This document shows positions 12,734-27,543 of a stretch of 50,551 nt of DNA, one piece after another; positions within the stretch are counted from its first letter, which is position 1, and each line of letters starts with the position of its first letter. A program made the translations under genes and the position numbers. Source of the stretch: Actinomycetota bacterium. GTDB taxonomy: Bacteria; Actinomycetota; Acidimicrobiia; Acidimicrobiales; Microtrichaceae. The DNA is taken from positions 1 to 50,551 of the forward strand of contig VGBZ01000005.1 in assembly GCA_016870275.1 (NCBI GenBank). The letters run 5' to 3'. The notes beneath the pieces were generated by a model, which searched no databases, was not told the DNA's origin, and worked only from the letters and a program-made list of their open reading frames with translations.

Positions 12734-13075
12734 GTGGGTCAGCCGGTTTCCGTCATCGAGAAGCGTTCGAGCCGACCTGGCGTGGTCCGCTTTGAGATCA
12801 ACCGGGTGCTCACCGGCACCGGTCACGAGCGTTACGTCGAGGGCGAACCCATCCTGGGCGACCGGCCACCCGACGTTTTGGCCCGTCGGTTGTTCGAACG
12901 TGGCGGGATCGACCGGATCCACATCAACTCCAACGTGGTCACCGTCGACCTGACCAAGGGTGCCGATGACACCTCGGGCATCGCCGAGATCATCGCCGAT
13001 CTCTACACGTTCTACCGGCCCGGCGTTGAGGTCCCGACCCCGGAGTCGTTCGGCGCCCCGGCAACGACCGAGTAG
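12734..13075 (+). CDS. NifU N-terminal-like (Nfu-N scaffold-type) small protein
   Basis: This 113-residue protein has a conserved central block (FEINRVLTGTGHERY, then RRLFERGG, then INSNVVTVDLTKG) that resembles the Nfu/NifU N-terminal domain found alone in many Actinobacteria. It has no Cys, so it cannot hold an Fe-S cluster by itself. The frame is open far upstream, but codon use and conservation start at the GTG at 12734, which sits 8 nt after TAGCAT (12720-12725). It lies immediately upstream of the SOS-controlled imuA' gene, separated by its own stop at 13075 and the LexA palindrome. Its role in cluster assembly is not demonstrated. Confidence 0.6.
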   Translation: MGQPVSVIEKRSSRPGVVRFEINRVLTGTGHERYVEGEPILGDRPPDVLARRLFERGGIDRIHINSNVVTVDLTKGADDTSGIAEIIADLYTFYRPGVEVPTPESFGAPATTE

Positions 13076-13086
13076 CGAACCTCTTG

Positions 13087-13116
13087 CACAGTATCGAACA
13101 CATGTTCGATACTGTG
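13087..13116. promoter_or_regulatory. LexA (SOS) box upstream of imuA'
   Basis: This is a 30-bp palindrome: 13-bp perfect arms (13087-13099 and 13104-13116) around a 4-nt spacer ACAT. The core TCGAACACATGTTCGA (13094-13109) matches the actinobacterial SOS consensus TCGAAC-N4-GTTCGA. The right arm contains the TACTGT hexamer (13110-13115), a predicted leaderless -10 element 5 nt before the GTG at 13121. LexA binding would therefore cover the promoter. Confidence 0.92.
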
Positions 13117-13120
13117 TCCC

Positions 13121-13891
13121 GTGACCGGGGGGCGACCGCAGCAGCTCGAGGACCTGCGTGATCTGGTGGCGTCGCTCGAGCCGGTCGTCCCCGCCCACGA
13201 GCGGGTCCTCCCGGTCGACCCGGCCGTTGCGTCACTGTTCCCGTTCGGTGGGCTGCGCCGGGGCACCACGCTCTGGATCGGTGGGACCGCTGGAGCGACC
13301 ACCCTCGCTCTGGGGCTGATCGCCGGCCCGACCCGCCAGGGTTCGTGGGTCGGGGCGTTGTCGGTGGCCTCGGTCGGCTGGGCGGCGGCGGCCCAACTCG
13401 GTGTCGATCTCCACCGATTGGCTGTCGTCCGCGCCGATGGACCGGACTGGACGGTCGCCGCTGCGGCCCTCGTCGACGCCTTCGACATCGTGTTGTTCGG
13501 GCCGGATCACCGACCGGCCCGACGTGACGTCCTGCGGATCGCCGCCCGGGCGCGTGAGCGGGGGACCGTGGTGGTCGCCTTCGGAGGCACCGAACAGGAG
13601 CGGGCCTGGCCCGGATCGGACCTCCGCCTCCACATCCAACCCGACGGCACTGCCCGTTGGCACGGTGTGGGCCGAGGCTGGGGTCGGCTGATCGGTCGTC
13701 GCCTGCAGGTGACGATCAGCGGACGGCACGGAGTCGACCGTCCCCGGGTGGTCGAGCTCTGGTCGCCCGGTCCCGCCGGGGTACTCGATTCCCCGGTCAC
13801 TGCCCCGGTCACTGCCCCGGTCACCGCTCCGGTCGACCAACCTCGTCGGGATACGGCCAGGATCCTGCAGTTTCCGGCGCAGCCGGCCTGA
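13121..13891 (+). CDS. imuA': ImuA': RecA-like accessory protein of the SOS mutasome
   Basis: ImuA' acts with ImuB and DnaE2 in damage-induced mutagenic lesion bypass. The 256-residue protein has a RecA-like core: LFPFGGLRRGTTLWIGGTAGATTLALGL followed by a Walker-B-like VDAFDIVLFG. The P-loop position reads GGTAGATT, without the Lys of a true Walker A, so ATP hydrolysis is doubtful. This fits what is known of the degenerate ImuA' proteins. Near the C terminus three 12-bp repeats (13793-13828) encode VTAP units. The GTG start lies 5 nt after the TACTGT hexamer within the LexA palindrome. imuB begins 1 nt after its stop. The identification rests on weak sequence similarity plus very strong context. 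Confidence 0.85.
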   Translation: MTGGRPQQLEDLRDLVASLEPVVPAHERVLPVDPAVASLFPFGGLRRGTTLWIGGTAGATTLALGLIAGPTRQGSWVGALSVASVGWAAAAQLGVDLHRLAVVRADGPDWTVAAAALVDAFDIVLFGPDHRPARRDVLRIAARARERGTVVVAFGGTEQERAWPGSDLRLHIQPDGTARWHGVGRGWGRLIGRRLQVTISGRHGVDRPRVVELWSPGPAGVLDSPVTAPVTAPVTAPVDQPRRDTARILQFPAQPA

Positions 13892-13892
13892 G

Positions 13893-15524
13893 ATGGACGC
13901 GTCGCAGCAGTTGCGGTCACTCGCGATCGAGGTGGCCGACTTCCCGGCGGTCGCCACTGGCCGACCGTCCGGAACCCCCGTGGCCGTCCTCCACGCCAAC
14001 CGGGTGGTGGCGGTCTCGCCGACGGCCCGCACCAGCGGGGTCGTCCCCGGCCTCCGCCGCCGGGAAGCCCAGTCGCGTTGTCCGGCGCTGGAGATCCACT
14101 CCGCTGATGTCGCTCGGGACGCCCGGGCATTCGAACCAGCCCTGCAGTCGATCGAGGAACTCGCACCCCGGATCGAAGTGGTCTCCGCCGGTCGCTGTGT
14201 GCTCCCCACTCGGGGCCCTTCCCGCTACCACGGCGGTGACCGGTCCCTGGCGAACCTGATCCGGGACCGGGTGCGGACGGCCCTCGGGTCGGTTGCGGTC
14301 GTCGGCGTCGGGGTCGCCGACGGTCCCCGGGCGGCACAGATCGTCGCTGCCGAGTCGCTTCGCTCCGGCGCCCCCGTCGTGGTCGGCCCCGGAGCGACGG
14401 CGACCCACCTGGCTCCGCTCCCCGTGGCCGTCCTGGCTGCGGTCATCCCGTTGGCTGCCCCGACTCCCGCCGGCACCCACCCGCCGTCTGCTCCCGCCAA
14501 CGGGTTCGCCGATCTGCTCGTCCGTCTCGGCATCCGCACCGTCGGTCACTTTGCGGCGCTGCCCGCTCCCGACGTCTCCGCCCGGTTCGGCGTCGTCGGC
14601 CGACTGGCTCACCAGGTGGCCACTGGGACCGAGACCGTCCCCGCCGACGTCGTGGATCCGCCCGCCGACCTCGTCGTCGCCACCGACGTGGATCCCCCGA
14701 TCGCTCAGGTCGAACGGGCCACGTTCGTGGCGAAGGTCCTCGCCGACGAACTCGCCGATCGGCTCGGCGTTCGGGGTCTGGTCTGCACCCGGGTGCTGGT
14801 TGCGATCGAGACCGTCGACGGGGAACGGTTGGAACGGTTGTGGCGTCACGAGGGTTCGCTGACCCCATCGGCGGTGGCCCAACGCGTCCGCTGGCAGCTC
14901 GACGGTTGGCGTCGGGGCCGGGTCCGCCACGATGACTCAGGGGGTGTGTGTCGGATGGAGTTGATCCCCGACCAGATCGTCCCCGACGCCGGTCGTCAAC
15001 TCGGATTCTGGGGTGGCTCCGATGACGCCACCACCCGGGCACTCCGGGCGTTGGCCCGGATCCAGGGGCAACTGGGGGCGGGGGCGGTCCTCGTCCCGGA
15101 GTGGCATGGTGGTCGGGCCCCGGCGGAACAGATCCGACTCGTCCCGCTCGAGGCGGTGGACCTCTCGGCTCGTGCGGATCCCCCCAACGCCCCGTGGCCC
15201 GGGATGATCCCGCCGCCCGCTCCGGCCCGCATCTGGACCTCCCCCCGGTCGGTCGATCTCCTCGACGCCGCAGGCACCCCGGTTCGGGTCAGCGGTCGGG
15301 GGGAACTGAGTGCCGCACCGCAACGCTGCTGTGTCGAGCGAGGCGACTGGACGGAGGTGGATGCGTGGGCCGGACCGTGGTGCAGCGATGAGCGCTGGTG
15401 GGACGCAACGGGCCACCGCCGCCGGGCCCGCCTGCAGATCGTGATCGCCACCCCTGCGGGTCACGAGGCCCATCTGGTGACACTCGAGTCGGGTTCGTGG
15501 TGGTTGGAGGCCAGCTACGACTGA
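13893..15524 (+). CDS. imuB: ImuB: inactive Y-family polymerase homologue, mutasome hub
   Basis: ImuB is the Y-family-like protein that bridges the sliding clamp and DnaE2; it does not polymerise DNA itself. The 543-residue product aligns with the family pattern: an N-terminal Y-family palm (LAIEVADFPAVATG), then VVPGLRRREAQSRCP and the block VSAGRCVLPTRGPSRYHGG. Active Y-family enzymes have an Asp-Glu pair in the last region, which is absent here, as in characterised ImuB proteins. The finger/little-finger part (GIRTVGHFAALPAPDVSARFG) and a C-terminal extension follow. It begins 1 nt after the imuA' stop, so the two form an operon under the LexA box. The usual third gene, dnaE2, is not next but at 21997. 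Confidence 0.92.
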   Translation: MDASQQLRSLAIEVADFPAVATGRPSGTPVAVLHANRVVAVSPTARTSGVVPGLRRREAQSRCPALEIHSADVARDARAFEPALQSIEELAPRIEVVSAGRCVLPTRGPSRYHGGDRSLANLIRDRVRTALGSVAVVGVGVADGPRAAQIVAAESLRSGAPVVVGPGATATHLAPLPVAVLAAVIPLAAPTPAGTHPPSAPANGFADLLVRLGIRTVGHFAALPAPDVSARFGVVGRLAHQVATGTETVPADVVDPPADLVVATDVDPPIAQVERATFVAKVLADELADRLGVRGLVCTRVLVAIETVDGERLERLWRHEGSLTPSAVAQRVRWQLDGWRRGRVRHDDSGGVCRMELIPDQIVPDAGRQLGFWGGSDDATTRALRALARIQGQLGAGAVLVPEWHGGRAPAEQIRLVPLEAVDLSARADPPNAPWPGMIPPPAPARIWTSPRSVDLLDAAGTPVRVSGRGELSAAPQRCCVERGDWTEVDAWAGPWCSDERWWDATGHRRRARLQIVIATPAGHEAHLVTLESGSWWLEASYD

Positions 15525-15642
15525 GGTCGACTGACCGCTTCTTCAGCATCGGCTGCCTACTCGGGTACGGATGCTGCGAGAATGGGGAGAATGCGTCGGA
15601 CGTCGACGTCCGACCACACGCCGAGCGCAGGAGCGAGCACAC

Positions 15643-16341
15643 ATGTCCGACACCCCCGAGGCCCGGGTTCTGATCGTCGAGGACGAGGAGGCACTCGCTG
15701 CCGGTGTGGCCCGGGGTCTCACTGACGACGGGTTCGCCGTCGACGTGGTCCACGACGGCCTGAGTGGCCTCGAGCGGGCCCGCAGCGACGACATCGACGT
15801 GGTCGTGCTCGACATCATGCTGCCCGGGATGAACGGCTACAAGGTCTGCCGGACACTTCGGGACGAGGGTGTCGGCACCCCGATCCTCATGCTCACCGCC
15901 AAGGACGGAGAGTACGACGAGGCCGAAGCGCTCGACACCGGGGCCGACGACTTCCTGTCCAAGCCCTTCAGCTACGTGGTGCTGGTCGCCCGCATCCGGG
16001 CACTGCTGCGGCGCTCGGCCGACGGCCGAGGTCAGCCGCTCGTCATCGGCGACTTGAAGCTCGATCCGCTGTCTCGCACCTGCTGGCGCGGTGAGACCCG
16101 AGTCGAGCTGACCACCCGCGAGTACGAGCTCCTCGAGACGCTGATGCGTCGGCCGGGCTTGGTCTTCGACAAGCAGGACCTCCTCGACAAGGTGTGGGGC
16201 GAGGACTTCGAGGGCGATCCGAACGTCGTCGAGGTCTACATCGGCTACCTGCGCAAGAAGCTCGACCGGCCGTTCGGTCGCAACGACATCCGTACGGTGC
16301 GCGGTATCGGCTACCGGATCGGAAGTGAGGCCAATGGGTGA
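15643..16341 (+). CDS. OmpR/PhoB-family response regulator
   Basis: This is the output protein of a two-component system with the kinase encoded next. The 232-residue product has a receiver domain with the acidic pocket E13-D14, phospho-acceptor D57 (VVLDIMLPGMNGY), T85 and K107 (LSKPF). A winged-helix DNA-binding domain follows from about residue 130 (TTREYELLETLMRRPG and YIGYLRKKLDRP). The ATG at 15643 is preceded by AGGAG about 8 nt upstream, so this gene is translated from a normal ribosome-binding site. An upstream in-frame extension to 15571 is not supported. The stop overlaps the kinase start by 8 nt. Confidence 0.93.
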   Translation: MSDTPEARVLIVEDEEALAAGVARGLTDDGFAVDVVHDGLSGLERARSDDIDVVVLDIMLPGMNGYKVCRTLRDEGVGTPILMLTAKDGEYDEAEALDTGADDFLSKPFSYVVLVARIRALLRRSADGRGQPLVIGDLKLDPLSRTCWRGETRVELTTREYELLETLMRRPGLVFDKQDLLDKVWGEDFEGDPNVVEVYIGYLRKKLDRPFGRNDIRTVRGIGYRIGSEANG

Positions 16342-17881
16342 CGCCGTCGCCCGTCGGCGGGTGACGCTCGGTGACCGGTGGCGCAACTCGGTTCGCTTCC
16401 GGTCGACGGCGATCGTCGTCGTGATGGTCGGAGCGTCGCTCGCCGTCGGCTTGTTCGTCATCGACCAGTGGTTGAGCGTGGCGTTGCGCAACGACGTCGG
16501 GAACCGCAGCAGCCGGGTGGTCGAGTCGATGGCCGCCGCCCTCACCCAGGGGCAGGTGCCCGCCGAGTTGTTCTCCTCCCCGGCTGAGTTCCAGCAGCGG
16601 ATCTCCTCGGAGCAGGGACCGATGGGCAACATCGAGGACTTCGACGAGGTCATCAGCTCGACCTACTTTTACCTCGACGGTCCGGCCTTCTCGCAGCTCA
16701 AGGTCCGCGGCGTCGACGGTCAGGGCCGTCTGGTGTTGTTCGGTCGCAACGCTCCGATGATGCCCCCGGCCGATGAGTCCTTCGAGGTGACACGGACCGT
16801 GCCCACGCGCTGGGGCGAGTTGACGATCCACGCCGTGTCGTCGGTAGGCGAGGTCGACCGTTCGGTCGCTGCGTTCCGCAACGTCCTCATCCCGTTGTTC
16901 CTCCTGTTGACGTTCTCTGCGGGCTACCTCACGTGGAAGATGACCGGGGTGGCGCTGGTGCCGGTCGGCGCCATGACCCGACGGGTGCGGGAGATCACCG
17001 CCACCGGCGGGCTCGACTCCCGGGTGCCGGTGTCGCCCATCGGCGACGAGGTGACCGATCTGGGGGAGACGCTCAACGCCATGCTCGATCGCGTGGAGGC
17101 AGCTGCAATCCGCCAGCGGCAGTTCGTCTCCGACGCCAGTCACGAGTTGCGCTCGCCCATCTCGTCGATCCGCGCCCAACTCGAGTCGGCGTTGCGCAGC
17201 CCTGAGCCGACTGACTGGCCGGAGGTGGCCCGCGTGGTGCTCGCCGAGGACGAACGGCTCGACCATCTCGTGGCGAACCTACTGGCGCTGGCGAGAATCG
17301 ATGAGGGCCGCACGACCCCTCGCGGCGAGGTGGACCTCGACGACATCGTGCTCACTCAAAGGTCCCGCATGAGTTCGGTGGCACTCGACCTCAGCGGAGT
17401 CCTCGCCGGCCGGGTCTGGGGCAACCAGGACGAACTCACCAGCGTGGTCCGCAACCTGCTCGACAACGCCGCCCGGCACTCCGAGGGTTGCGTGTCGGTG
17501 GGGGTGCAGACGGTCGGCCCGTGGGTCGTGCTCCGTGTCGGCGACGACGGGCCCGGCATCGTGCCCGAGGAGCGGGCGAGTGTCTTCGAGCGCTTCACCC
17601 GTCTCCAGGCCGGCCGGGCTCGTGACCAGGGCGGAGCCGGCCTCGGTCTGGCTCTGACCAAGCGGATCGTCGAGCAGCACGGCGGCCGCATCACCGTCGA
17701 GGACGATCCGCTCGGCGGGGCGTGCTTCGTCGTGGCGCTACCGGCGCTGAATTGGCATTCCGATCTCCTGGACGCAGACCAGACCGACGACCAGATCGAG
17801 GATCCGCCCGACGGTCTCCTCGACGGCCGACCCGACGGCGTCGATCACCCCGAGGACGCTCCAGCACCGACATTGCGCTGA
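16334..17881 (+). CDS. Sensor histidine kinase (HAMP, HisKA, HATPase)
   Basis: This membrane sensor would phosphorylate the preceding response regulator. Of about 515 residues, a first membrane segment (about 22-45) and a second (about 175-197) bracket a roughly 130-residue extracytoplasmic sensor region. A HAMP linker follows, then the H-box SDASHELRSPISS with phospho-acceptor H270, the N-box NLLDNAARHSEG, VGDDGPGIVPEE (G1) and GGAGLGLALTKRIVEQHGG (G2). The domain order is that of MtrB/MprB-type kinases. The start is the ATG at 16334 (8-nt overlap with the regulator); a GTG at 16325 is the alternative. The Asp-rich C-terminal tail (residues 480-515) overlaps the 3' end of the convergent EAL gene by 37 bp. 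Confidence 0.93.
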   Translation: MGDAVARRRVTLGDRWRNSVRFRSTAIVVVMVGASLAVGLFVIDQWLSVALRNDVGNRSSRVVESMAAALTQGQVPAELFSSPAEFQQRISSEQGPMGNIEDFDEVISSTYFYLDGPAFSQLKVRGVDGQGRLVLFGRNAPMMPPADESFEVTRTVPTRWGELTIHAVSSVGEVDRSVAAFRNVLIPLFLLLTFSAGYLTWKMTGVALVPVGAMTRRVREITATGGLDSRVPVSPIGDEVTDLGETLNAMLDRVEAAAIRQRQFVSDASHELRSPISSIRAQLESALRSPEPTDWPEVARVVLAEDERLDHLVANLLALARIDEGRTTPRGEVDLDDIVLTQRSRMSSVALDLSGVLAGRVWGNQDELTSVVRNLLDNAARHSEGCVSVGVQTVGPWVVLRVGDDGPGIVPEERASVFERFTRLQAGRARDQGGAGLGLALTKRIVEQHGGRITVEDDPLGGACFVVALPALNWHSDLLDADQTDDQIEDPPDGLLDGRPDGVDHPEDAPAPTLR

Positions 17882-20004
17882 GCGGGATTGCGCTGACCGG
17901 GGTCCGCCCGCCGGCCGGCGTCAGCGCTGCGTTCGTCACGGAGCCGTCGTTCGAACGCCGCCGCCGGGAGCGGCGGGGCGTAGAGGAACCCCTGCACGAC
18001 GTCACAGCCGGCGTCGGCGAGGAACTCCCGTTGGGCCTCCGTTTCGACTCCCTCGGCCACGGCGATGATGCCGAGGTTGTGGGCCATCGAGATGATCGTG
18101 CGGGTGATCGTCCCGCTGCGGCCGTCGCGGAGATCGTTCACGAACTGTCGGTCGATCTTGAGCGCGTGCAGGGGGAGCGAGTGCAGGTACGACAGCGACG
18201 AGTAGCCCGTGCCGAAGTCGTCGAGAGCGATCAGGAACCCGAGTTGGTCGAGTTCGCCCAGGCGTCGAGCTGCGGCCCGAAGATCCTGAACGAGGAGGCT
18301 CTCGGTGATCTCGAGTTCGATCCGCTGTGCGGGAACTCCGGCCTCGTTGAGCACTCGGGACAGCCGTTCGACGTACTGCGGGTGTTCGAACTCGGTGGCC
18401 GAGACGTTGACCGCCACCCGAACGTCGGTCGGCAGGAGGCCGATATCGATCCACCGGCGCACGTCGTGGGCCACCTTGGTGAGGACGAGGTCGCCGATGG
18501 CGACGATCGAACCGCTCTCCTCGGCCGCCGGGATGAACACCGATGGCGGGATCGGTCCCCGTTGCGGGTGGTGCCAGCGCAGGAGTGCCTCCGCCGCCGA
18601 CAGCGAACTGGTCCGCAGATCGACGAGTGGCTGATAGTGGATGTCGAGATCGTGTTGGGCGACTGCGCTTCGCAACTCGGCATCGACGGCGAGTCCCCGG
18701 TGGACCCGGCCGCCTCCGCTCGGTGCCGGAAACTCGACGGAGTGACGGGAGTCGGTCCGACTCGCAGCGACTGCCCGGCCCGCAGCGAGCATGAGTCCCT
18801 CAGCGTCGTTGGCGTCCCCCGGTGAGCGGGCCACGCCGACCGACGCCGTCAGCCGCACCGTCAGGTCGTCGATGCGAAACGGCTCGCTCAGCCGCCGTTG
18901 GATCTCCTCGGCGAGTCCACGCAGGCGGCTGTCGAAAGCGAGGCTTGCTCCATCGGCGGTGAGCACCACGAGGAACTCGTCCACGCCGATCCGGCCGATC
19001 TCGATGCCGCGGTCACCGAGGTCCCGGAGCCGCGCTGCGAGTTGCACCAGTACGACGTCACCGACGGACGTGCTGAACGACTCGTTGATCGTGCGGAAAT
19101 CGTCCACGTCGACGTGCAGGACCCCGGTGCGAATGCTGCTGCGGGCCGCCTCGCCGTTCTCGACCAGCGACTTCAGGTTCCCGACGATCCTGGCCCTCGA
19201 TGCCAACCCGGTGAGCGGATCCGACCCGGCGAGTCGGTCGATCGTCGCTGCGGTCTCCCGGTCGGTGGTCTGGTCCCGGAGGACGATCACCACGCCGGCA
19301 GGTGCAGGAGTGGGGCTCGGGAGCGGGTGGGCGATCATCGAGAACCACGGCCGCTCGCCACGCACGTGGCGAAGCGTCATGCTGGCGCTGCTGGCGCTGC
19401 GGGCCTTGCGCAGTGCCGTGACCGGGGCGGTCGTGCGGGGATCGGGAGTCGAGCCGTCCTCCAACACCAGATCCCATGGCGGATCGTGAACGCTTCGATC
19501 GAGGATCTGGTCCTGGCGCTGTGACACCAGTCGACAGAAGGCGGCGTTGACGCTGGTGATCCGGCCGGAGGCGTCGACGAGTGCGACTCCCTCGTCGAGG
19601 ATCTCAGCGACGGTCGTCCAGGACTGGTCGGCTGTCGGATCCGCAGCGGCCCGGGGGATCAACTCGGAGATCACCAGGACGACGTCGGCCTCGTCCGGCC
19701 TGTCGGCGGCGTGACGGGTGAGCCAGAGGCGCACCGGACGGATCTCCTCGAGGGTGCGGAGTCGCGACGACAGCGGGTGAGCTTCTGCTCCGATCAACCG
19801 ATCGACGACTGCGGCCCAGCGTTCCTCGTCGTAGCCGGGATCGAGCAGCTCGCCGATGGTCGCAGTGTCCGACGAGGGTCCACAGGCCGATCGAGCGGCC
19901 GGGTTGGCGCAGGTGATCCGCCCGGAGGCAGCATCAACGATCCAGGCTGGTTCCGGCAGTCGCTCGATCGCTGAAGTCGCCAGGGCGAGGTGAGGGCCGC
20001 TCAC
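17845..20004 (-). CDS. PAS-PAS-GGDEF-EAL cyclic-di-GMP protein with degenerate GGDEF
   Basis: This 719-residue cytoplasmic protein has two PAS-like sensor domains (about residues 10-130 and 130-255), a GGDEF domain (about 260-430) and an EAL phosphodiesterase domain (about 445-700). The diguanylate cyclase signature reads RIGVDEF: the second Gly is Val, which should impair or abolish synthesis. The EAL domain keeps its key motifs (EALLRW, VAVNVSATEFEH, LEITESLL, ALDDFGTGYSSL, LKIDRQF, AEGVETEAQ), so it is likely an active c-di-GMP phosphodiesterase. It has no membrane segment. The GTG start lies 6 nt after TACCCT (20016-20011), and the gene is convergent with the kinase. Confidence 0.92.
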   Translation of the reverse strand: MSGPHLALATSAIERLPEPAWIVDAASGRITCANPAARSACGPSSDTATIGELLDPGYDEERWAAVVDRLIGAEAHPLSSRLRTLEEIRPVRLWLTRHAADRPDEADVVLVISELIPRAAADPTADQSWTTVAEILDEGVALVDASGRITSVNAAFCRLVSQRQDQILDRSVHDPPWDLVLEDGSTPDPRTTAPVTALRKARSASSASMTLRHVRGERPWFSMIAHPLPSPTPAPAGVVIVLRDQTTDRETAATIDRLAGSDPLTGLASRARIVGNLKSLVENGEAARSSIRTGVLHVDVDDFRTINESFSTSVGDVVLVQLAARLRDLGDRGIEIGRIGVDEFLVVLTADGASLAFDSRLRGLAEEIQRRLSEPFRIDDLTVRLTASVGVARSPGDANDAEGLMLAAGRAVAASRTDSRHSVEFPAPSGGGRVHRGLAVDAELRSAVAQHDLDIHYQPLVDLRTSSLSAAEALLRWHHPQRGPIPPSVFIPAAEESGSIVAIGDLVLTKVAHDVRRWIDIGLLPTDVRVAVNVSATEFEHPQYVERLSRVLNEAGVPAQRIELEITESLLVQDLRAAARRLGELDQLGFLIALDDFGTGYSSLSYLHSLPLHALKIDRQFVNDLRDGRSGTITRTIISMAHNLGIIAVAEGVETEAQREFLADAGCDVVQGFLYAPPLPAAAFERRLRDERSADAGRRADPGQRNPAQRNVGAGASSG

Positions 20005-20010
20005 CCGGTC

Positions 20011-20016
20011 AGGGTA
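20011..20016 (-). promoter_or_regulatory. Leaderless-type -10 hexamer for the GGDEF-EAL gene
   Basis: On the minus strand TACCCT ends 6 nt before the GTG at 20004, and no ribosome-binding site is visible. Confidence 0.5.
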
Positions 20017-20064
20017 GGAGCGGCACCACGTGATCGGGTGGATGGCTCGTCCACCCGACGGCGC

Positions 20065-21894
20065 TCACCGTGAAGGACCCGGGAGTCGTCCTGCGGCCTC
20101 AGCGGCGTCCTCGGCTGCTCCGAGTTGGGCGTCGATCAGCTCGAGCCCGGCCGACCAGAACCCCGGATCGGCGAGATCGCAGTCCACGATCCTCCCGAGG
20201 GTCTCCGGGTCGGCCGAGCCGCCGGATCGCAGCAGTTCGAGGTACGCCGGGACGAATCCGGCGCCCTGTTGCCGGTAGCGGGCGTAGACCGACAGGGCCA
20301 GGAGCTGCCCGTAGGCGTACGCGTACACGTACCCGGGGGTGGCGATGAAGTGCGGGATGTAGCTCCACCAGGTCAGGTAGCCATCGGTGAGTTCGACCGT
20401 GTCACCGAGCATTCCTCGCTGCGACTCGCCCCACAGGTCCCCGAAGCGCTCCACCGACAGCTCGCCATCGTCACGACGGGAACGGTGGACGGCATCCTCG
20501 AACCGGTTCATGGCGACCTGGCGGAAGACCGTGGCGATGGAGTCCTCGAGCGACGAGGCCAACAGCGCAAACCGCTGATCGGGGTCGTCGAGGCGCTCGA
20601 GGAGAGCAGAGTTGGTCATCGTCTCGCCGAACACCGATGCGGTCTCGGCGAGCGTCAGCGGAGTGGACTGGTGGAACACGCCCTGCTCCCGCGACAGGTA
20701 GGCGTGAACCCCGTGGCCGAGTTCGTGGGCGAGCGTGAGGACGTCGCGGTTGCTCGACGTCCAGTTCAACAACACGTACGGGTGGTGCGAGGGAACGGTG
20801 TAGGCGCAGAACGCACCGGGCCGCTTGCCCGGTCGGACGGGAGCATCGATCCACCCCTCGTCGACGAACCGACGGGCGATGTCGGCGAGTTCCGGTGAGA
20901 AGCGTCCGTAGGCGTCGAGCACGATGGCCGTGGCCTCGTTCCACCCGATGCTCGACTCGTCAGATGCGACCGAGGCCATCCGGTCGTAGTCGGCGAGTCG
21001 CTCGAGCCCCAGCACTGCGGCCTTCAGGCGGTACCAGCGCTGCGGAATGTCGTAGCGGGCGACGACCGCCTCCACGAGCGCCTCGACGGAGTCGTCGCTG
21101 GCCTCGTTGGCCAGGTTCCTCGAGGAGATCCACGACGGGTAGTGGCGCAGGCGGTCGTCGGTGGACTTGTCGAGCAGGAGCGTGTTGAAGATGTACGCCC
21201 GCGTTCTCAGACCCGGTTCGAGTCCGGCGGTCACCGCCGCAGCAGCGGTGGCTCGCACCTCCCGGTCGGGGTGTTGCAGGAGGGTGAGGCCCTGTTCGAG
21301 GGCAACGGTCCCACCGAGATCCTCGGGCAGATCCACGGCGATCGACGAGGTCTGCTCGTCGAAGAGTCGGACCCATGCGGCTGTCCCGCTCGGATGGAAC
21401 GCCGTGAGCACCCGTTCCTCGGGTTCACCGAGGAGGTGGTCGCGATAGCGGCGGATCGAACGGAGGTGGTGGGCGCAGAAGTCGAGGCGCGGGTCGGCGA
21501 GGAGCTGTTCGACGTGAGCGTCGTCGAGTGCGGCCCACTCGAGCTCGAAGAACACGAGTTGCTCTGCGGTCGCTGTGCTGCGCTCTTGGACGACCATCAT
21601 CTCTGCACCCCGTTCGGGGTCGGTGACGTTCTCGGACAATCGCAGCATCACGTAGTTGCCGACCCGCCCTTGGAGGTCAGCGAGTTCCGCAGAGCGCTCC
21701 ATGGCCTCAGCGAGCGCCTCACTGGACAGTTCAGCGACGAGGCCGCGCAGGTTGGCCAGCTCGGCGGCCAGCTGATCGCTGCGTTCGAGGAGTTGTTCGA
21801 TCGTGGCCCCGTCGAGCAGTCCGCTGAGATCCCAGGCGACGTCAGCGGCGCGCAGATCGGTTTCATCCGGGGTGGTCTGGTCGGTGTCGCTCAC
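20065..21894 (-). CDS. pepF: Oligoendopeptidase F-like M3 metallopeptidase
   Basis: This zinc peptidase cleaves short peptides in the cytoplasm. The 609-residue protein shows the M3 active site LAHELGHGVHAYLS (HExxH) with the downstream Glu in TLAETASVFGE. The N-terminal PepF-type helical domain (about residues 18-200) and the C-terminal IATPGYVYAYAYGQLLALSVYARY block follow the family order. There is no signal peptide. The GTG at 21894 is 7 nt after TAGCCT (21907-21902). It is divergent from dnaE2, with about 100 nt in between that also carries the second LexA box. A connection to SOS is not implied by anything in the protein. Confidence 0.93.
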   Translation of the reverse strand: MSDTDQTTPDETDLRAADVAWDLSGLLDGATIEQLLERSDQLAAELANLRGLVAELSSEALAEAMERSAELADLQGRVGNYVMLRLSENVTDPERGAEMMVVQERSTATAEQLVFFELEWAALDDAHVEQLLADPRLDFCAHHLRSIRRYRDHLLGEPEERVLTAFHPSGTAAWVRLFDEQTSSIAVDLPEDLGGTVALEQGLTLLQHPDREVRATAAAAVTAGLEPGLRTRAYIFNTLLLDKSTDDRLRHYPSWISSRNLANEASDDSVEALVEAVVARYDIPQRWYRLKAAVLGLERLADYDRMASVASDESSIGWNEATAIVLDAYGRFSPELADIARRFVDEGWIDAPVRPGKRPGAFCAYTVPSHHPYVLLNWTSSNRDVLTLAHELGHGVHAYLSREQGVFHQSTPLTLAETASVFGETMTNSALLERLDDPDQRFALLASSLEDSIATVFRQVAMNRFEDAVHRSRRDDGELSVERFGDLWGESQRGMLGDTVELTDGYLTWWSYIPHFIATPGYVYAYAYGQLLALSVYARYRQQGAGFVPAYLELLRSGGSADPETLGRIVDCDLADPGFWSAGLELIDAQLGAAEDAAEAAGRLPGPSR

Positions 21895-21901
21895 GTGGGT
21901 C

Positions 21902-21907
21902 AGGCTA
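21902..21907 (-). promoter_or_regulatory. Leaderless-type -10 hexamer for pepF
   Basis: TAGCCT on the minus strand ends 7 nt before the GTG at 21894. It is 57 nt from the LexA core of dnaE2 on the other strand. Confidence 0.45.
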
Positions 21908-21963
21908 CGTGGCGGCTCGTCCAGTCCGGTTCAGCGTGGTCCGGCCGGGAGGTGCAGCGCTGG

Positions 21964-21989
21964 CGCTGTCGAACACATGTTCGATAGCG
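21964..21989. promoter_or_regulatory. LexA (SOS) box upstream of dnaE2
   Basis: The core TCGAACACATGTTCGA (21969-21984) is identical, including the ACAT spacer, to the imuA' box. The flanks extend the palindrome to 26 bp with one mismatched pair. TAGCGT (21985-21990) follows the core directly and ends 6 nt before the GTG at 21997, again placing the predicted -10 element within the operator. Confidence 0.92.
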
Positions 21990-21996
21990 TGTGCAT

Positions 21997-24900
21997 GTGG
22001 GCTTCACCAACCCCGACGTGCCGTGGTCCGAACTCGAGCGTCGCCTCTCCGACCGGCCGCCGGGCGCCGCCCCGGCCGCAGCGGATCGCCCCGGTGACGG
22101 CAGCGACGCCCCGGCGTGGTCTCGCCGGCGTCCCACCTACGAGCCGCCTGCCGATGTGAACCGGACCGGGGCACCTCCCGCCCGGCCCTGTTCGGGTTAC
22201 GCCGAACTGCACTGCCACTCGGCGTTCTCGTTCCTCGACGGCGCCTCCATGCCCGAGGCGCTGGTGGAGGAGGCGGCTCGTCTGGGACTCGACGCCCTGG
22301 CGCTCACCGACCACGACGGCTGTTACGGCGTGGTGCGCTTCGCCGAGGCCGCCCGGGCGGTCGGACTGCCGACGGTGTTCGGCGTCGAGCTCACGTTGAA
22401 CGCCACCGAGTCACGCGCCGGGCCTGCCGATCCGACCGGTGAGCACCTGTTGGTGTTGGCCCGTGATCCTCAGGGGTACGCCGCTTTGGCCTCGCTCGTG
22501 TCCCGGGCGCAGATGGCAGGGGAGAAGGGTCATCCCCGGCTCGCCTTCGCTGAGGTGGCCGAGGCCGCCTCGGGCCGGGCCCGGGGACACTGGGCGGTGT
22601 TGACCGGCGGTCGCAAGGGCACGGTGCCCGCCCGGTTGTTGGCGCAGGGCCCGGCAGCGGCCGAACGGGAACTGCGCAGCCTGGTTGCTGCGTTCGGGGC
22701 GGACCACACGTTCGTGGAGTTGTGGGATCACGCTGATCCGCTGGACTCGGCTCGCAACGACGCCATGGCTGACCTCGCAGTCCGACTCGGGGTGCAGCCC
22801 GTGGCCACCAACGCCGTCCACTACGCCACCCCGGCCCGACGTCGGCTGGCCTCGGCCATGGCTGCGGTCAGGTCCCGTCGGAGCCTCGACGAGATCGACG
22901 GCTGGTTGCCGGCAGGCTGGCAGGCCCATCTGCGCACTGCGGCTGAGCAGCGACGGCGCTTCGCCCGTTACCCCGGGGTGGTCGACGCCGCCGGCGGGCT
23001 CGGGCGGGCGTGTGCGTTCGATCTGTCGCTGGTGGCGCCGGCGCTGCCGCCGTACCCCTGCCCTGTCGGATCCGACGGTGTGCCGCTCAGCGAGCCGGCG
23101 TTCCTCCGTCAGCTGGTGGAGGAGGGTGGCACCCGTCGCTACGGCCCCCGTCACGCCGAACGAGTGGCCGGGGCCTGGGCCCAACTCGACCACGAACTCG
23201 ACCTGATCGAGCAACTGGGTTTCTGCGGCTACTTCCTCGTCGTGTGGGACATCGTCGAGTTCTGCCGGCGTTCTGCGATCCTCTGCCAGGGCCGGGGGTC
23301 GGCGGCCAACTCGGCGGTGTGTTTCGCTCTCGGGGTCACCGCTGTCGACGCCGTCCAACTGGGGCTGCTGTTCGAACGATTCCTGTCACCAGAACGCGAC
23401 GGACCACCCGACATCGACCTCGACATCGAGTCCGGGCGTCGGGAGGAGGTGATCCAGTACGTCTACGAGCGTTACGGCCGGTCACACGCCGCCCAGGTGG
23501 CCAACGTGATCACCTATCGAGCCCGCTCCGCCGTCCGTGACGCCGCCCGGGCGCTCGGGTTCGCTCCCGGCCAGCAGGATGCCTGGTCCCGTCAGGTGGA
23601 CCGGTGGCGGGGGGTGCCGTCGATCGACGCAGCGTTGGCGGGGGGCGATGCCCCCGGTGGGGTGGACATCCCGGTGCCGGTACTGGAGCTCGCTGCACAG
23701 TTCGAGGACCTGCCCCGTCACCTGGGCATCCACTCGGGAGGCATGGTCATCTGCGACCGGCCCGTGGTGGAGGTCTGTCCGGTCGAGTGGGCCAGCATGC
23801 CGGGCCGGACGGTCCTGCAGTGGGACAAGGACGACTGCGCCGGTGCCGGTCTGGTCAAGTTCGATCTGCTCGGCCTGGGCATGCTCTCGGCGCTGCACCG
23901 TTGCGTGGACCTGGTGCGCGACCACCACGCTGTCGACGTCGATCTGGCCACCATCGCTCAGGAGGACGCCGTCTACGACATGCTCTGCCGGGCGGATTCG
24001 GTGGGGGTGTTCCAGGTGGAGTCACGGGCGCAGATGGCCACGCTGCCGCGGTTGCGCCCGCGGTGCTTCTACGACCTGGTGGTGGAGGTGGCACTCATCC
24101 GCCCGGGTCCCATCCAGGGAGGGTCGGTCCACCCGTACATCCGTCGGCGCCGGGGTGAGGAGCCGGTCACGTACCTCCACCCGGCGCTCGAACCGGCGCT
24201 CGCCAAGACGCTCGGGGTGCCACTGTTCCAGGAACAGCTCATGCAGATGGCCATCGACGTGGCCGGCTTCACCCCGGCCGAGGCCGACCAACTCCGTCAG
24301 GCCATGGGGTCCAAGCGTTCGGCGCAGCGCATGCGAGCCCTGCGCGCCCGCTTCGATGCCGGTCTGGCCGAGCGTGGGGTGGTGGGCGATGTGGCCGAGG
24401 CCATCTGGGACAAGCTGGCGGCCTTCGCCAACTACGGATTCCCCGAGTCGCACTCGGTGAGCTTCGCCTACCTGGTGTACGCCTCGGCGTGGTTCAAGTA
24501 CCACTACCCGGCGGCGTTCTGCGTGGCGTTGTTGAACTCCCAGCCGATGGGGTTCTACTCGCCTCAGTCGCTCGTCCAGGACGCCCGGCGTCACGGCGTG
24601 GAGGTGTTCGGGCCCGACGTGCAGCACTCTGCTGACGTGGCCACGCTCCAGGGGGACGGGTCCTCGCTGCCGGTGGTGCGGCTCGGGTTGTCGTTGGTCC
24701 GGGGCATCGGAGGGGAGCTGGCCGAACGCATCGCCGATGGTGCCCCCTACCGGGACCTCGAGGACGTCGCCCGGCGGACCGGAGCGGACCGGGCCCAGTT
24801 GGAGGCGCTCGCCACCGCCGGAGCGTTCGCGTCCCTCCGTGACCGGGAGGGCCGTCCGCTCGACCGGCGCCGCGCCCTGTGGGCCGCTGGCGCGGCCGCC

Positions 24901-25380
24901 GAGGCGCGTCCGGACCGGCTCCCGGGCACCGCTGGGGCGATCGTCGCCCCGTGCCTCCCCGGCATGGATCCGTGGGAGGAGTCCACCGCCGACCTGTGGT
25001 CCACTGGGGTGACTCCCTCTGGCCATCCGTTCGAACTGCTCCGTGAGGAACTCGATCGCAGAGGGGTGGTCCCGGCCGCCGAACTGTTGCAGCGGGCCGA
25101 CGGCTCGACGATCCGGGTCGCCGGTGTGGTCACCCACCGGCAGCGCCCGGCCACGGCCCGGGGGGTCACGTTCGTCAACCTCGAGGACGACACGGGTCTG
25201 GTCAACGTGGTGGTGTCGGTGGGGTGTTGGGAACGCCACCGGCGGGTGGTTCGCGACGCCCCGGCGTTGTGCATCCGTGGTCGACTCGAGCGGACGGTCG
25301 ACGGGGTCGTCAACATCGTGGCGCACCGCATCGAACCCCTCGAGGTGCAGGTGCCGGCCTCGGCGCGCGACTTCCGCTGA
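21997..25380 (+). CDS. dnaE2: DnaE2: error-prone C-family DNA polymerase alpha subunit
   Basis: DnaE2 is the catalytic polymerase of the ImuA'/ImuB mutasome. The 1,127-residue product has an N-terminal PHP domain (AELHCHSAFSFLDGAS and ALALTDHDGCYG) and the C-family palm with GRGSAANSAVCFALG and PPDIDLDIESGRREEV, whose Asp pair binds metal. It then has KDDCAGAGLVKFDLLGLGML, the second catalytic segment, the helix-hairpin-helix region LVRGIGGELAERIADG and a C-terminal OB fold (IRVAGVVTHRQRPATARG). A GTG at 21991 is also in frame. The GTG at 21997 gives the family-like start MGFTNPDVPWSELE and the same promoter spacing as imuA'. The LexA box makes it SOS-induced. Confidence 0.95.
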   Translation: MGFTNPDVPWSELERRLSDRPPGAAPAAADRPGDGSDAPAWSRRRPTYEPPADVNRTGAPPARPCSGYAELHCHSAFSFLDGASMPEALVEEAARLGLDALALTDHDGCYGVVRFAEAARAVGLPTVFGVELTLNATESRAGPADPTGEHLLVLARDPQGYAALASLVSRAQMAGEKGHPRLAFAEVAEAASGRARGHWAVLTGGRKGTVPARLLAQGPAAAERELRSLVAAFGADHTFVELWDHADPLDSARNDAMADLAVRLGVQPVATNAVHYATPARRRLASAMAAVRSRRSLDEIDGWLPAGWQAHLRTAAEQRRRFARYPGVVDAAGGLGRACAFDLSLVAPALPPYPCPVGSDGVPLSEPAFLRQLVEEGGTRRYGPRHAERVAGAWAQLDHELDLIEQLGFCGYFLVVWDIVEFCRRSAILCQGRGSAANSAVCFALGVTAVDAVQLGLLFERFLSPERDGPPDIDLDIESGRREEVIQYVYERYGRSHAAQVANVITYRARSAVRDAARALGFAPGQQDAWSRQVDRWRGVPSIDAALAGGDAPGGVDIPVPVLELAAQFEDLPRHLGIHSGGMVICDRPVVEVCPVEWASMPGRTVLQWDKDDCAGAGLVKFDLLGLGMLSALHRCVDLVRDHHAVDVDLATIAQEDAVYDMLCRADSVGVFQVESRAQMATLPRLRPRCFYDLVVEVALIRPGPIQGGSVHPYIRRRRGEEPVTYLHPALEPALAKTLGVPLFQEQLMQMAIDVAGFTPAEADQLRQAMGSKRSAQRMRALRARFDAGLAERGVVGDVAEAIWDKLAAFANYGFPESHSVSFAYLVYASAWFKYHYPAAFCVALLNSQPMGFYSPQSLVQDARRHGVEVFGPDVQHSADVATLQGDGSSLPVVRLGLSLVRGIGGELAERIADGAPYRDLEDVARRTGADRAQLEALATAGAFASLRDREGRPLDRRRALWAAGAAAEARPDRLPGTAGAIVAPCLPGMDPWEESTADLWSTGVTPSGHPFELLREELDRRGVVPAAELLQRADGSTIRVAGVVTHRQRPATARGVTFVNLEDDTGLVNVVVSVGCWERHRRVVRDAPALCIRGRLERTVDGVVNIVAHRIEPLEVQVPASARDFR

Positions 25381-26183: not shown

Positions 26184-26268
26184 CCGCTCACCCCCCAACA
26201 CTCGCGGGTCGACCTGCCCGCCACGGTGAGCGACAACCGATGTGGAATCTCCACGGTCCGAGGCCATG

Positions 26269-27543
26269 ATGTTCAGGATGGACAGCGGGCCAGGTCCTCT
26301 GTGGTGCACCCCGACGCGCCGTCGATCGGTCGCTGTCGTCGTCACGGTGCTCCTCGTGGTTCTGGCGCTCGCATCACCGCCGGGTGGAGCGCAGACGAGT
26401 GCCGACTCGCCCAGCCCGTCAATTGGTTCGCAGTCCGATTCGCAGTCCGGTCCGCCGGTGACCACGCCGGGTCAGCGGGCGCGGACCGAGGCGGAGATCG
26501 ACCTGACCCGAGCATCTCAGGAGCAGGTCCTCAACGAGATCGAACGTCTCCGCACCCAGATCGCAGACCAGGGCGCGGTTGCGGACGCTGCCCGGAGTCG
26601 GGCCGCCGCTGCGGCAGCGGCGTCCGCCGAGGCCCAAGGCCGAGCGGACGTGGCCGCAGCCAACGCCATGCGCAATCGCAGTCAGTTCCAGTCCTACGTG
26701 ACCGAGTCATTCATCCGACCGCCCTCACAGGAGCTACTCACCCTGCTCGCAGTGTCTGCGGTCCGTGACGACAGCCACGTGGTCGGGATGGTCCGCTCAG
26801 TGGCCGAGGGACGGCAGCGGCGGGTTGAGGCGTTCGCCGCCGAGCAGCGGGATGCGGAGACGGCACGGGACACCGCTGAGCGGGCCCGAGCGGCTGCTGA
26901 TTCGGAGCGGGGCGCTGCTGAACGTGCTCAGGCCGACCTCGAACAGGGCGTCCGAGACCAGCAGGCGCTCGCAGCTGCGCTCGAGGATCGCCTCGAGCGG
27001 CAGCTCGCCGAGATCGAAGCTCTGCGTGAACTCGACGAGCAGGCGGCACAGGAACTCGCCGAGGCCCAGGCCGCAGCTCGTGCCGCAGCGACGGCGGCGG
27101 GCGTGTCGCCGGGGCAGTCGGCCGGAGCAATCTCCACAGTCGCCGCCGGGCCTCCGGTCGGTCCCGGTGAGATCACGACGGTCAGGGGCATTCCGATCCA
27201 CCAGTCGATCGCAGCCAACCTCGAGGCACTCCTCGCGGCGGCCGCAGCCGATGGTGTGCCGCTGTCGGGGAGCGGGTACCGGAGCAGCGACCGTCAGGTG
27301 CAGCTCCGGCGCGCCCACTGCGGCGCCACGCCGTTCGACGTCTACGAGAAGCCCTCGTCGCAGTGCTCACCGCCCACCGCACGTCCGGGCCGATCCATGC
27401 ACGAGCGCGGCCTCGCCGTCGACTTCCGGAACTGCAGCGTCCGAACGACGGCGTGCTACCGCTGGCTGGCGGCGAACGCAGCCCGGTACGGCCTCCTCAA
27501 CCTGCCTTCCGAACCCTGGCACTGGTCCGTCAACGGACGATGA
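26269..27543 (+). CDS. Secreted coiled-coil M15 (VanY/DacB-like) D,D-carboxypeptidase
   Basis: This is a probable cell-wall peptidase. An N-terminal hydrophobic segment (VAVVVTVLLVVLALA, then ending near GGAQT) exports or anchors it. A Ser/Gln-rich linker leads to a long Ala/Glu/Arg coiled coil (about residues 75-270) like those of NlpC/P60 hydrolases and their activators. The C-terminal peptidase_M15 domain has GYRSSDRQVQLRRAHC, the zinc motif SMHERGLAVDF (His and Asp) and EPWHWSVNG (His). The start is uncertain: ATGs at 26266, 26269 and 26278 and a GTG at 26242 are in frame; 26269 has GAGG 5 nt upstream. The stop is followed by a degenerate region. Confidence 0.85.
   Translation: MFRMDSGPGPLWCTPTRRRSVAVVVTVLLVVLALASPPGGAQTSADSPSPSIGSQSDSQSGPPVTTPGQRARTEAEIDLTRASQEQVLNEIERLRTQIADQGAVADAARSRAAAAAAASAEAQGRADVAAANAMRNRSQFQSYVTESFIRPPSQELLTLLAVSAVRDDSHVVGMVRSVAEGRQRRVEAFAAEQRDAETARDTAERARAAADSERGAAERAQADLEQGVRDQQALAAALEDRLERQLAEIEALRELDEQAAQELAEAQAAARAAATAAGVSPGQSAGAISTVAAGPPVGPGEITTVRGIPIHQSIAANLEALLAAAAADGVPLSGSGYRSSDRQVQLRRAHCGATPFDVYEKPSSQCSPPTARPGRSMHERGLAVDFRNCSVRTTACYRWLAANAARYGLLNLPSEPWHWSVNGR

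Follow-up and report, generated by a model that had tools for sequence, protein, structure and literature searches.

The window analysed here, a stretch of 50,551 nucleotides of contig VGBZ01000005.1 from a member of the Microtrichaceae (Acidimicrobiales), very probably carries a translesion mutasome of the ImuA'-ImuB-DnaE2 type whose cassette is split in two, is co-controlled by LexA and was inherited in the split state by this acidimicrobial bacterium. The imuA'-imuB pair and dnaE2 would each have a promoter overlaid by an operator to which LexA binds, and damage would activate RecA, leading to cleavage of LexA and release of both units together despite the four genes that lie between them. 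The split itself would go back at least to the base of the family, and dnaE2 would retain an operator of its own because the upstream promoter is no longer shared.

The features of the region are listed in Table 1. The polymerase, ImuB, ImuA' and a predicted LexA site for each transcription unit were all found, which places the predicted products in the ImuA'-ImuB-DnaE2 SOS mutasome. DnaE2 scores 1441 bits with NF004225 (cut-off 939); with NF004226, the replicative model, it reaches 710 bits, under the cut-off of 1002. For dnaE2, GTG 21997 is a likelier start than 21991; the sequence GFTNPDVPW opens the protein after 21997. The catalytic motif of Y-family polymerases is of the acidic SIDE type, and ImuB, as judged by eye, has SAGR at this position, consistent with a Y-family fold without the catalytic acidic motif. 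Comparison of ImuA' and ImuB with the sequences of the PDB returned nothing useful. The distance from imuB to dnaE2 is 6.47 kb, and profile searches agree with the preliminary description, which had put a two-component system, a GGDEF-EAL protein and pepF in the roughly 6.5 kb between the halves. Two further genes flank the region. A small conserved protein is encoded at about 12740–13075, just 5' of imuA', with a weak Nfu_N match (E 0.015); of 113 loci with imuA', 47 have a homologue. A VanY-type carboxypeptidase gene (window 26242–27543) lies 3' of dnaE2; in L031, L041, L055, L057 and L090 such a gene follows imuB on the opposite strand.

Table 1. Features of the split cassette and of the region between its halves, in window coordinates.
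Feature	Position	Strand	Basis and remarks
Putative imuA' promoter	13084–13113	+	-35-like TTGCAC 13084–13089, 18 nt, -10-like GATACT 13108–13113; read by eye
LexA operator 1 (predicted), TCGAACACATGTTCGA	13094–13109		Within 30-bp inverted repeat 13087–13116, 14-nt perfect arms, 2-nt centre
imuA', RecA-like mutasome accessory factor	13121–13891	+	NCBIfam NF058630, E 1e-34, 119.5 bits (cut-off 65)
imuB	13893–15524	+	Pfam IMS, E 1e-12
Response regulator (RR), OmpR type	15643–16341	+	Domain profile match
Sensor histidine kinase (HK)	16325–17881	+	Domain profile match; in 18/18 family gaps
PAS-GGDEF-EAL protein	17845–20004	-	Domain profile match; in 12/18 family gaps
M3 family oligoendopeptidase, pepF-like	20065–21894	-	Divergent from dnaE2; in 14/18 family gaps
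LexA operator 2 (predicted), same 16-mer	21969–21984		End overlaps -10-like GATAGC 21983–21988
dnaE2, error-prone C-family polymerase	21997–25380	+	NCBIfam NF004225

Identical 16-nt sites just 5' of imuA'-imuB and of dnaE2 had been described previously, and both their coordinates and their placement were confirmed in the sequence. When up to 3 mismatches to the 16-mer are allowed, the window holds 4 matches (the 2 sites on both strands) against 0.20 expected, and 4 or more were seen in none of 100 shuffles; the two occurrences are not chance. The operators start 27 nt (imuA') and 28 nt (dnaE2) ahead of the start codon, a spacing from which both mRNAs may be leaderless. Given the positions of TTGCAC and GATACT, operator 1 would span the spacer and the -10 element of the putative imuA' promoter. 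No clear -35 element was seen by eye before dnaE2, and a sigma-70 promoter scan listed neither the imuA' nor the dnaE2 promoter. Within the family, an operator with up to 2 mismatches lies near imuA' in all 17 loci where a search was possible and before dnaE2 in all 18 loci with both genes, and the string TTGCCAGTA-operator-TACTGG recurs in 4 of 9 displayed family rows.

Sites of the same type precede lexA and recA. A single LexA_DNA_bind match was obtained in the draft genome, which comprises 3.2 Mb in 137 contigs, and upstream of this lexA (C34:25315–25432) sites with 2, 1, 1 and 3 mismatches were found at 25315, 25344, 25374 and 25417, while the site upstream of recA, ACGAACACCTGTTCGT, has 2 mismatches, both at the outermost positions. 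With similar sites in these two places, LexA operators are the natural reading of the window sites, which are probably just that, and at which we infer LexA binding. One LexA regulon across both halves, as the preliminary description proposed, is supported by these sites and by the predicted operator at each half. Sites with 2 mismatches number 661 per strand genome-wide against 84 for the reversed pattern, so that such a site is informative by its place alone. Exact copies of the 16-mer number three in the whole draft, the third being 5' of a DUF222 gene. LexA-type operators precede DUF222 genes in L003 (1501–2906), L005 and L006 (contigs C14, C57 and C65 of the same genome); the L003 gene also has a weak HNH match just under the cut-off, and the L006 fragment has no Pfam match and resembles L005 by eye. 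The sequence TGTCACA, which we take to resemble the PafBC -35 element, lies 5' of the sites in L003, L005 and L006 and also of those in L004 and L007. In M. tuberculosis, too, genes of the HNH type are counted among the SOS genes, according to passages of PMC7911356 and PMC8151990.

The split layout is old and common in the order and is not peculiar to the genome of the window. Among 118 genomes of the order searched, ImuB was matched in at least 109 and DnaE2 in at least 116, at cut-offs that also admit paralogues. After the hits were re-typed, ImuB was retained in 97 genomes, DnaE2 in 98 and both in 93, among the matches listed. In 16 of these 93 (again among the matches listed), many of which are drafts, imuB and dnaE2 are on different contigs, and the remaining 77 same-contig genomes include that of the window. 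Measured from alignment edges, the gaps in the 77, among the matches listed, are up to 300 bp in 28, 301–2500 bp in 12, 2501–20000 bp in 35 and more than 20 kb in 1, with the two genes on different strands in 1, which left 49 of 77 not compact. Placing starts in the DNA allowed 73 to be re-scored (29 compact, 44 not), with G059 and G098 becoming compact, and four keep the first score (G032 compact; G089, G101 and G105 not). In total, among the matches listed, 47 of the 77 same-contig genomes are not compact and 30 are compact. In the family of the window, 33 genomes were searched and 29 have ImuB; 28 loci were analysed, and G120 was excluded as a fragment match. The gap is 2.2 to 11.6 kb in all 18 stretches with both genes and 17.8 kb in G139, so that none of the 19 scorable family genomes is compact; in the other nine loci the contig or stretch ended before the second gene.

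Presence of an operator before dnaE2 goes with the split. For this comparison, 139 loci with both genes were assembled, 135 after removal of duplicates, with at least 17 from Micromonosporaceae, Mycobacteriaceae, Nocardia and relatives. A dnaE2 operator was defined as a site with up to 2 mismatches at -60 to -8 from a start placed by homology; the commonest operator start is -28 from the start codon. Across the 135 loci an operator is found in 3/50 with gaps up to 300 bp, 4/6 at 301–1000 bp, 13/16 at 1001–2500 bp and 57/63 above 2500 bp, and the corresponding values for genomes of the order alone are 3/29, 2/3, 7/8 and 28/33. Of the 79 loci with gaps beyond 1 kb, 70 thus have a separate operator for dnaE2 and 9 are without a site at -60 to -8, compared with 35 of 1580 (2.2%) random windows within gaps and 0 of 79 for the reversed motif. 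Given the background of 661 against 84, the reversed motif is a mild control and the random windows are the better one. In 11 independent pairs chosen to control for kinship, the operator goes with the split in a mean of 6.6 pairs and against it in 0.1, with no difference in 4.4 (median p 0.016); at a 1-kb cut-off the test is weaker (median p 0.031, range to 0.29). That dnaE2 has its own operator where the cassette is split is a conserved rule and a modest comparative result. Three loci, L138, L156 and L162, are compact yet have an operator between imuB and dnaE2, and are candidates for intermediates.

The history of the split was traced on a FastTree phylogeny of DnaE2 with 130 rows, from which five loci with a short DnaE2 were omitted and which was rooted on four proteobacterial plasmid loci. 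This tree may not follow the species tree, and several of its inner branches have low support. Changes between the compact and split states number 13 at the minimum, and 11 of them are forced by starred branches. In the outgroup imuB and dnaE2 abut in 4/4 loci, with imuA listed in three, and the tree takes 13 steps with a compact root and 14 with a split one. A contiguous cassette is therefore the likely state of the deep ancestor, by a margin of one step. The former contiguous operon suggested in the preliminary description thus stands, narrowly, for the deep ancestor, whereas a recent interruption does not, since the split dates from the base of the family or earlier. All four cost schemes place it at or before the node joining 15 family rows (support 0.60). 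Equal costs give 1 split and 12 re-fusions, as does a scheme in which splitting costs double; when re-fusion costs double there are 8 splits and 6 re-fusions, and when it is barred, 34 splits. As the counts depend on the scheme and several inner branches have low support, no number of reversals is claimed. One early split in which dnaE2 gained a LexA promoter, followed by about a dozen re-fusions through loss of the intervening genes, each with loss of the redundant dnaE2 operator, is a tentative history that we consider possible though on balance somewhat doubtful.

It could also be proposed that a contiguous operon was interrupted in this lineage by the block of genes and that the imuA' operator was copied to dnaE2, hence the identity of the two sites. 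The 16-mers of the window are indeed identical, and the outgroup cassettes are contiguous at imuB-dnaE2, but we regard this account as very improbable. Among 63 loci with two operators, the window alone has an identical pair, and random pairing gives a mean of 0.485. The pairs of three same-genus relatives are unequal, with dnaE2 and imuA' operator centres of GTGT and ACCT (L195), GTGT and AGGT (L197) and GTGT and ACGT (G072); the sequences flanking the two operators of the window differ; and the age of the split under all four cost schemes argues against an interruption here. With one identical pair where about 0.49 is expected, and with unequal pairs in the same genus, the identity is most simply a coincidence under a strong shared consensus, and the earlier interpretation of it as the trace of a duplicated operator or of an interruption is not upheld. 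Duplication of the operator was rejected on the pairing test, the three unequal pairs and the differing flanks, and recent insertion into the cassette on family synteny and rooted parsimony. Independent arrival of dnaE2, by transfer or translocation, with its own SOS promoter and with no contiguous stage in this line, would account for the nearly fixed spacing between dnaE2 and its own operator in most split loci, and the compact and split roots are only one step apart. It does not predict that the halves share a strand in 76 of the 77 same-contig genomes of the order and lie within 20 kb in 75 (among the matches listed), and we hold it to be improbable.

A different reading concerns the genes between the halves. 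Gene order in relatives had been named as the comparison that would decide whether the four intervening genes always lie there, and the outcome is mixed: they are not universal in the order, but a non-compact layout is common and the RR-HK pair lies 3' of imuB in all 27 informative family loci (L207, whose sequence ends too early, was left out). RR is on the same strand as imuB throughout and within 400 nt of it in 23, and a simple scan of the window gave no terminator-like site between the two genes. These observations would fit a single LexA-driven imuA'-imuB-RR-HK transcript that couples the sensor system to DNA damage. We nevertheless consider this unlikely. The interval between imuB and RR, when folded as RNA, has a z of -1.9 and shows no clear terminator. 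No strong LexA site lies between imuB and RR, and RR is 1.1 to 7.0 kb from imuB in 4 of the 27 loci (L199, L201, L203 and L204). Moreover, a CCTGAGAA-like or CCTGAGAAnCTG-like element precedes RR in 13 of the 17 family loci examined, as would be expected of a separate promoter or autoregulatory site. In the window it reads CTGCGAGAATG (15574–15584), with a similar string in L195 and three copies in L209, L213 and L214. The element, a possible promoter or response regulator binding site, suggests that the RR-HK pair has its own promoter; the start of RR is more likely ATG 15643, behind AGGAG, than 15571. Control of the intervening genes by SOS sites of their own was rejected, as no other site with up to 1 mismatch was found between the two operators and the four with 2 mismatches (14161, 16262, 18140 and 21785) are each inside a gene. 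With no strong site and a conserved element of its own before the two-component pair, the four genes between the halves probably do not belong to the SOS genes.

Outside the family of the window the gene content of the gap is mixed, as judged from 85 loci with a gap of more than 300 bp, in which a simple caller that makes some wrong-strand calls gave 333 ORFs in 209 clusters. In other families a membrane protein of about 390 aa (cluster c2, without a Pfam match) follows imuB in L030, L033, L139, L184, L127 and others. Of the 118 genomes of the order, 29 encode this protein, not always close to the cassette, and it is a candidate member of the SOS operon.

Split cassettes under LexA control have been described before. 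The closest known arrangement is that of mycobacteria, where, as in the window, imuA'-imuB and dnaE2 form two loci that are each LexA-controlled (PMC3901139), though the content of the gap is unlike that of the window. The separation of dnaE2 in mycobacteria, mentioned in the preliminary description, was recovered in L086, L096 and L099, which are split and have an exact-consensus dnaE2 operator. A passage of PMC10421592 places the mycobacterial cassette genes under PafBC as well. According to section 13 of PMC3901139, nearly every configuration of the cassette is found, separate loci with an SOS box apiece among them; a passage of PMC3919608 describes LexA-regulated cassettes as contiguous or split, and split cassettes are also named in parts of PMC10421592 and PMC8072749. 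The contiguous imuA-imuB-dnaE2 operon of Proteobacteria has the same polymerase and an ImuB-type partner, and SOS control is reported for it in a passage of PMC3901139. In the four plasmid records imuB and dnaE2 abut, and the operon has ImuA rather than ImuA'. In compact imuA'-imuB-dnaE2 loci, which occur in the Acidimicrobiales and in Micromonosporaceae, homologous genes are arranged as in the window with a gap of up to 300 bp, and 47 of 50 compact loci are without an operator directly before dnaE2, unlike the window. Among the papers listed for Acidimicrobi with dnaE2, or with LexA and SOS (PMC10205998 being one), nothing on the present gene order was found. As reviews already describe a split LexA-controlled cassette, the window alone adds little, and the comparative result is of some value.

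As the presence of a dnaE2 operator follows the break between the halves through many state changes, the order forms a natural series for questions about the breaking of operons, and in particular whether an operon breaks before or after its downstream gene gains a promoter of its own. If the history of one early split and repeated re-fusion is true, the breaking and re-making of this operon would be reversible while the regulon stays whole.
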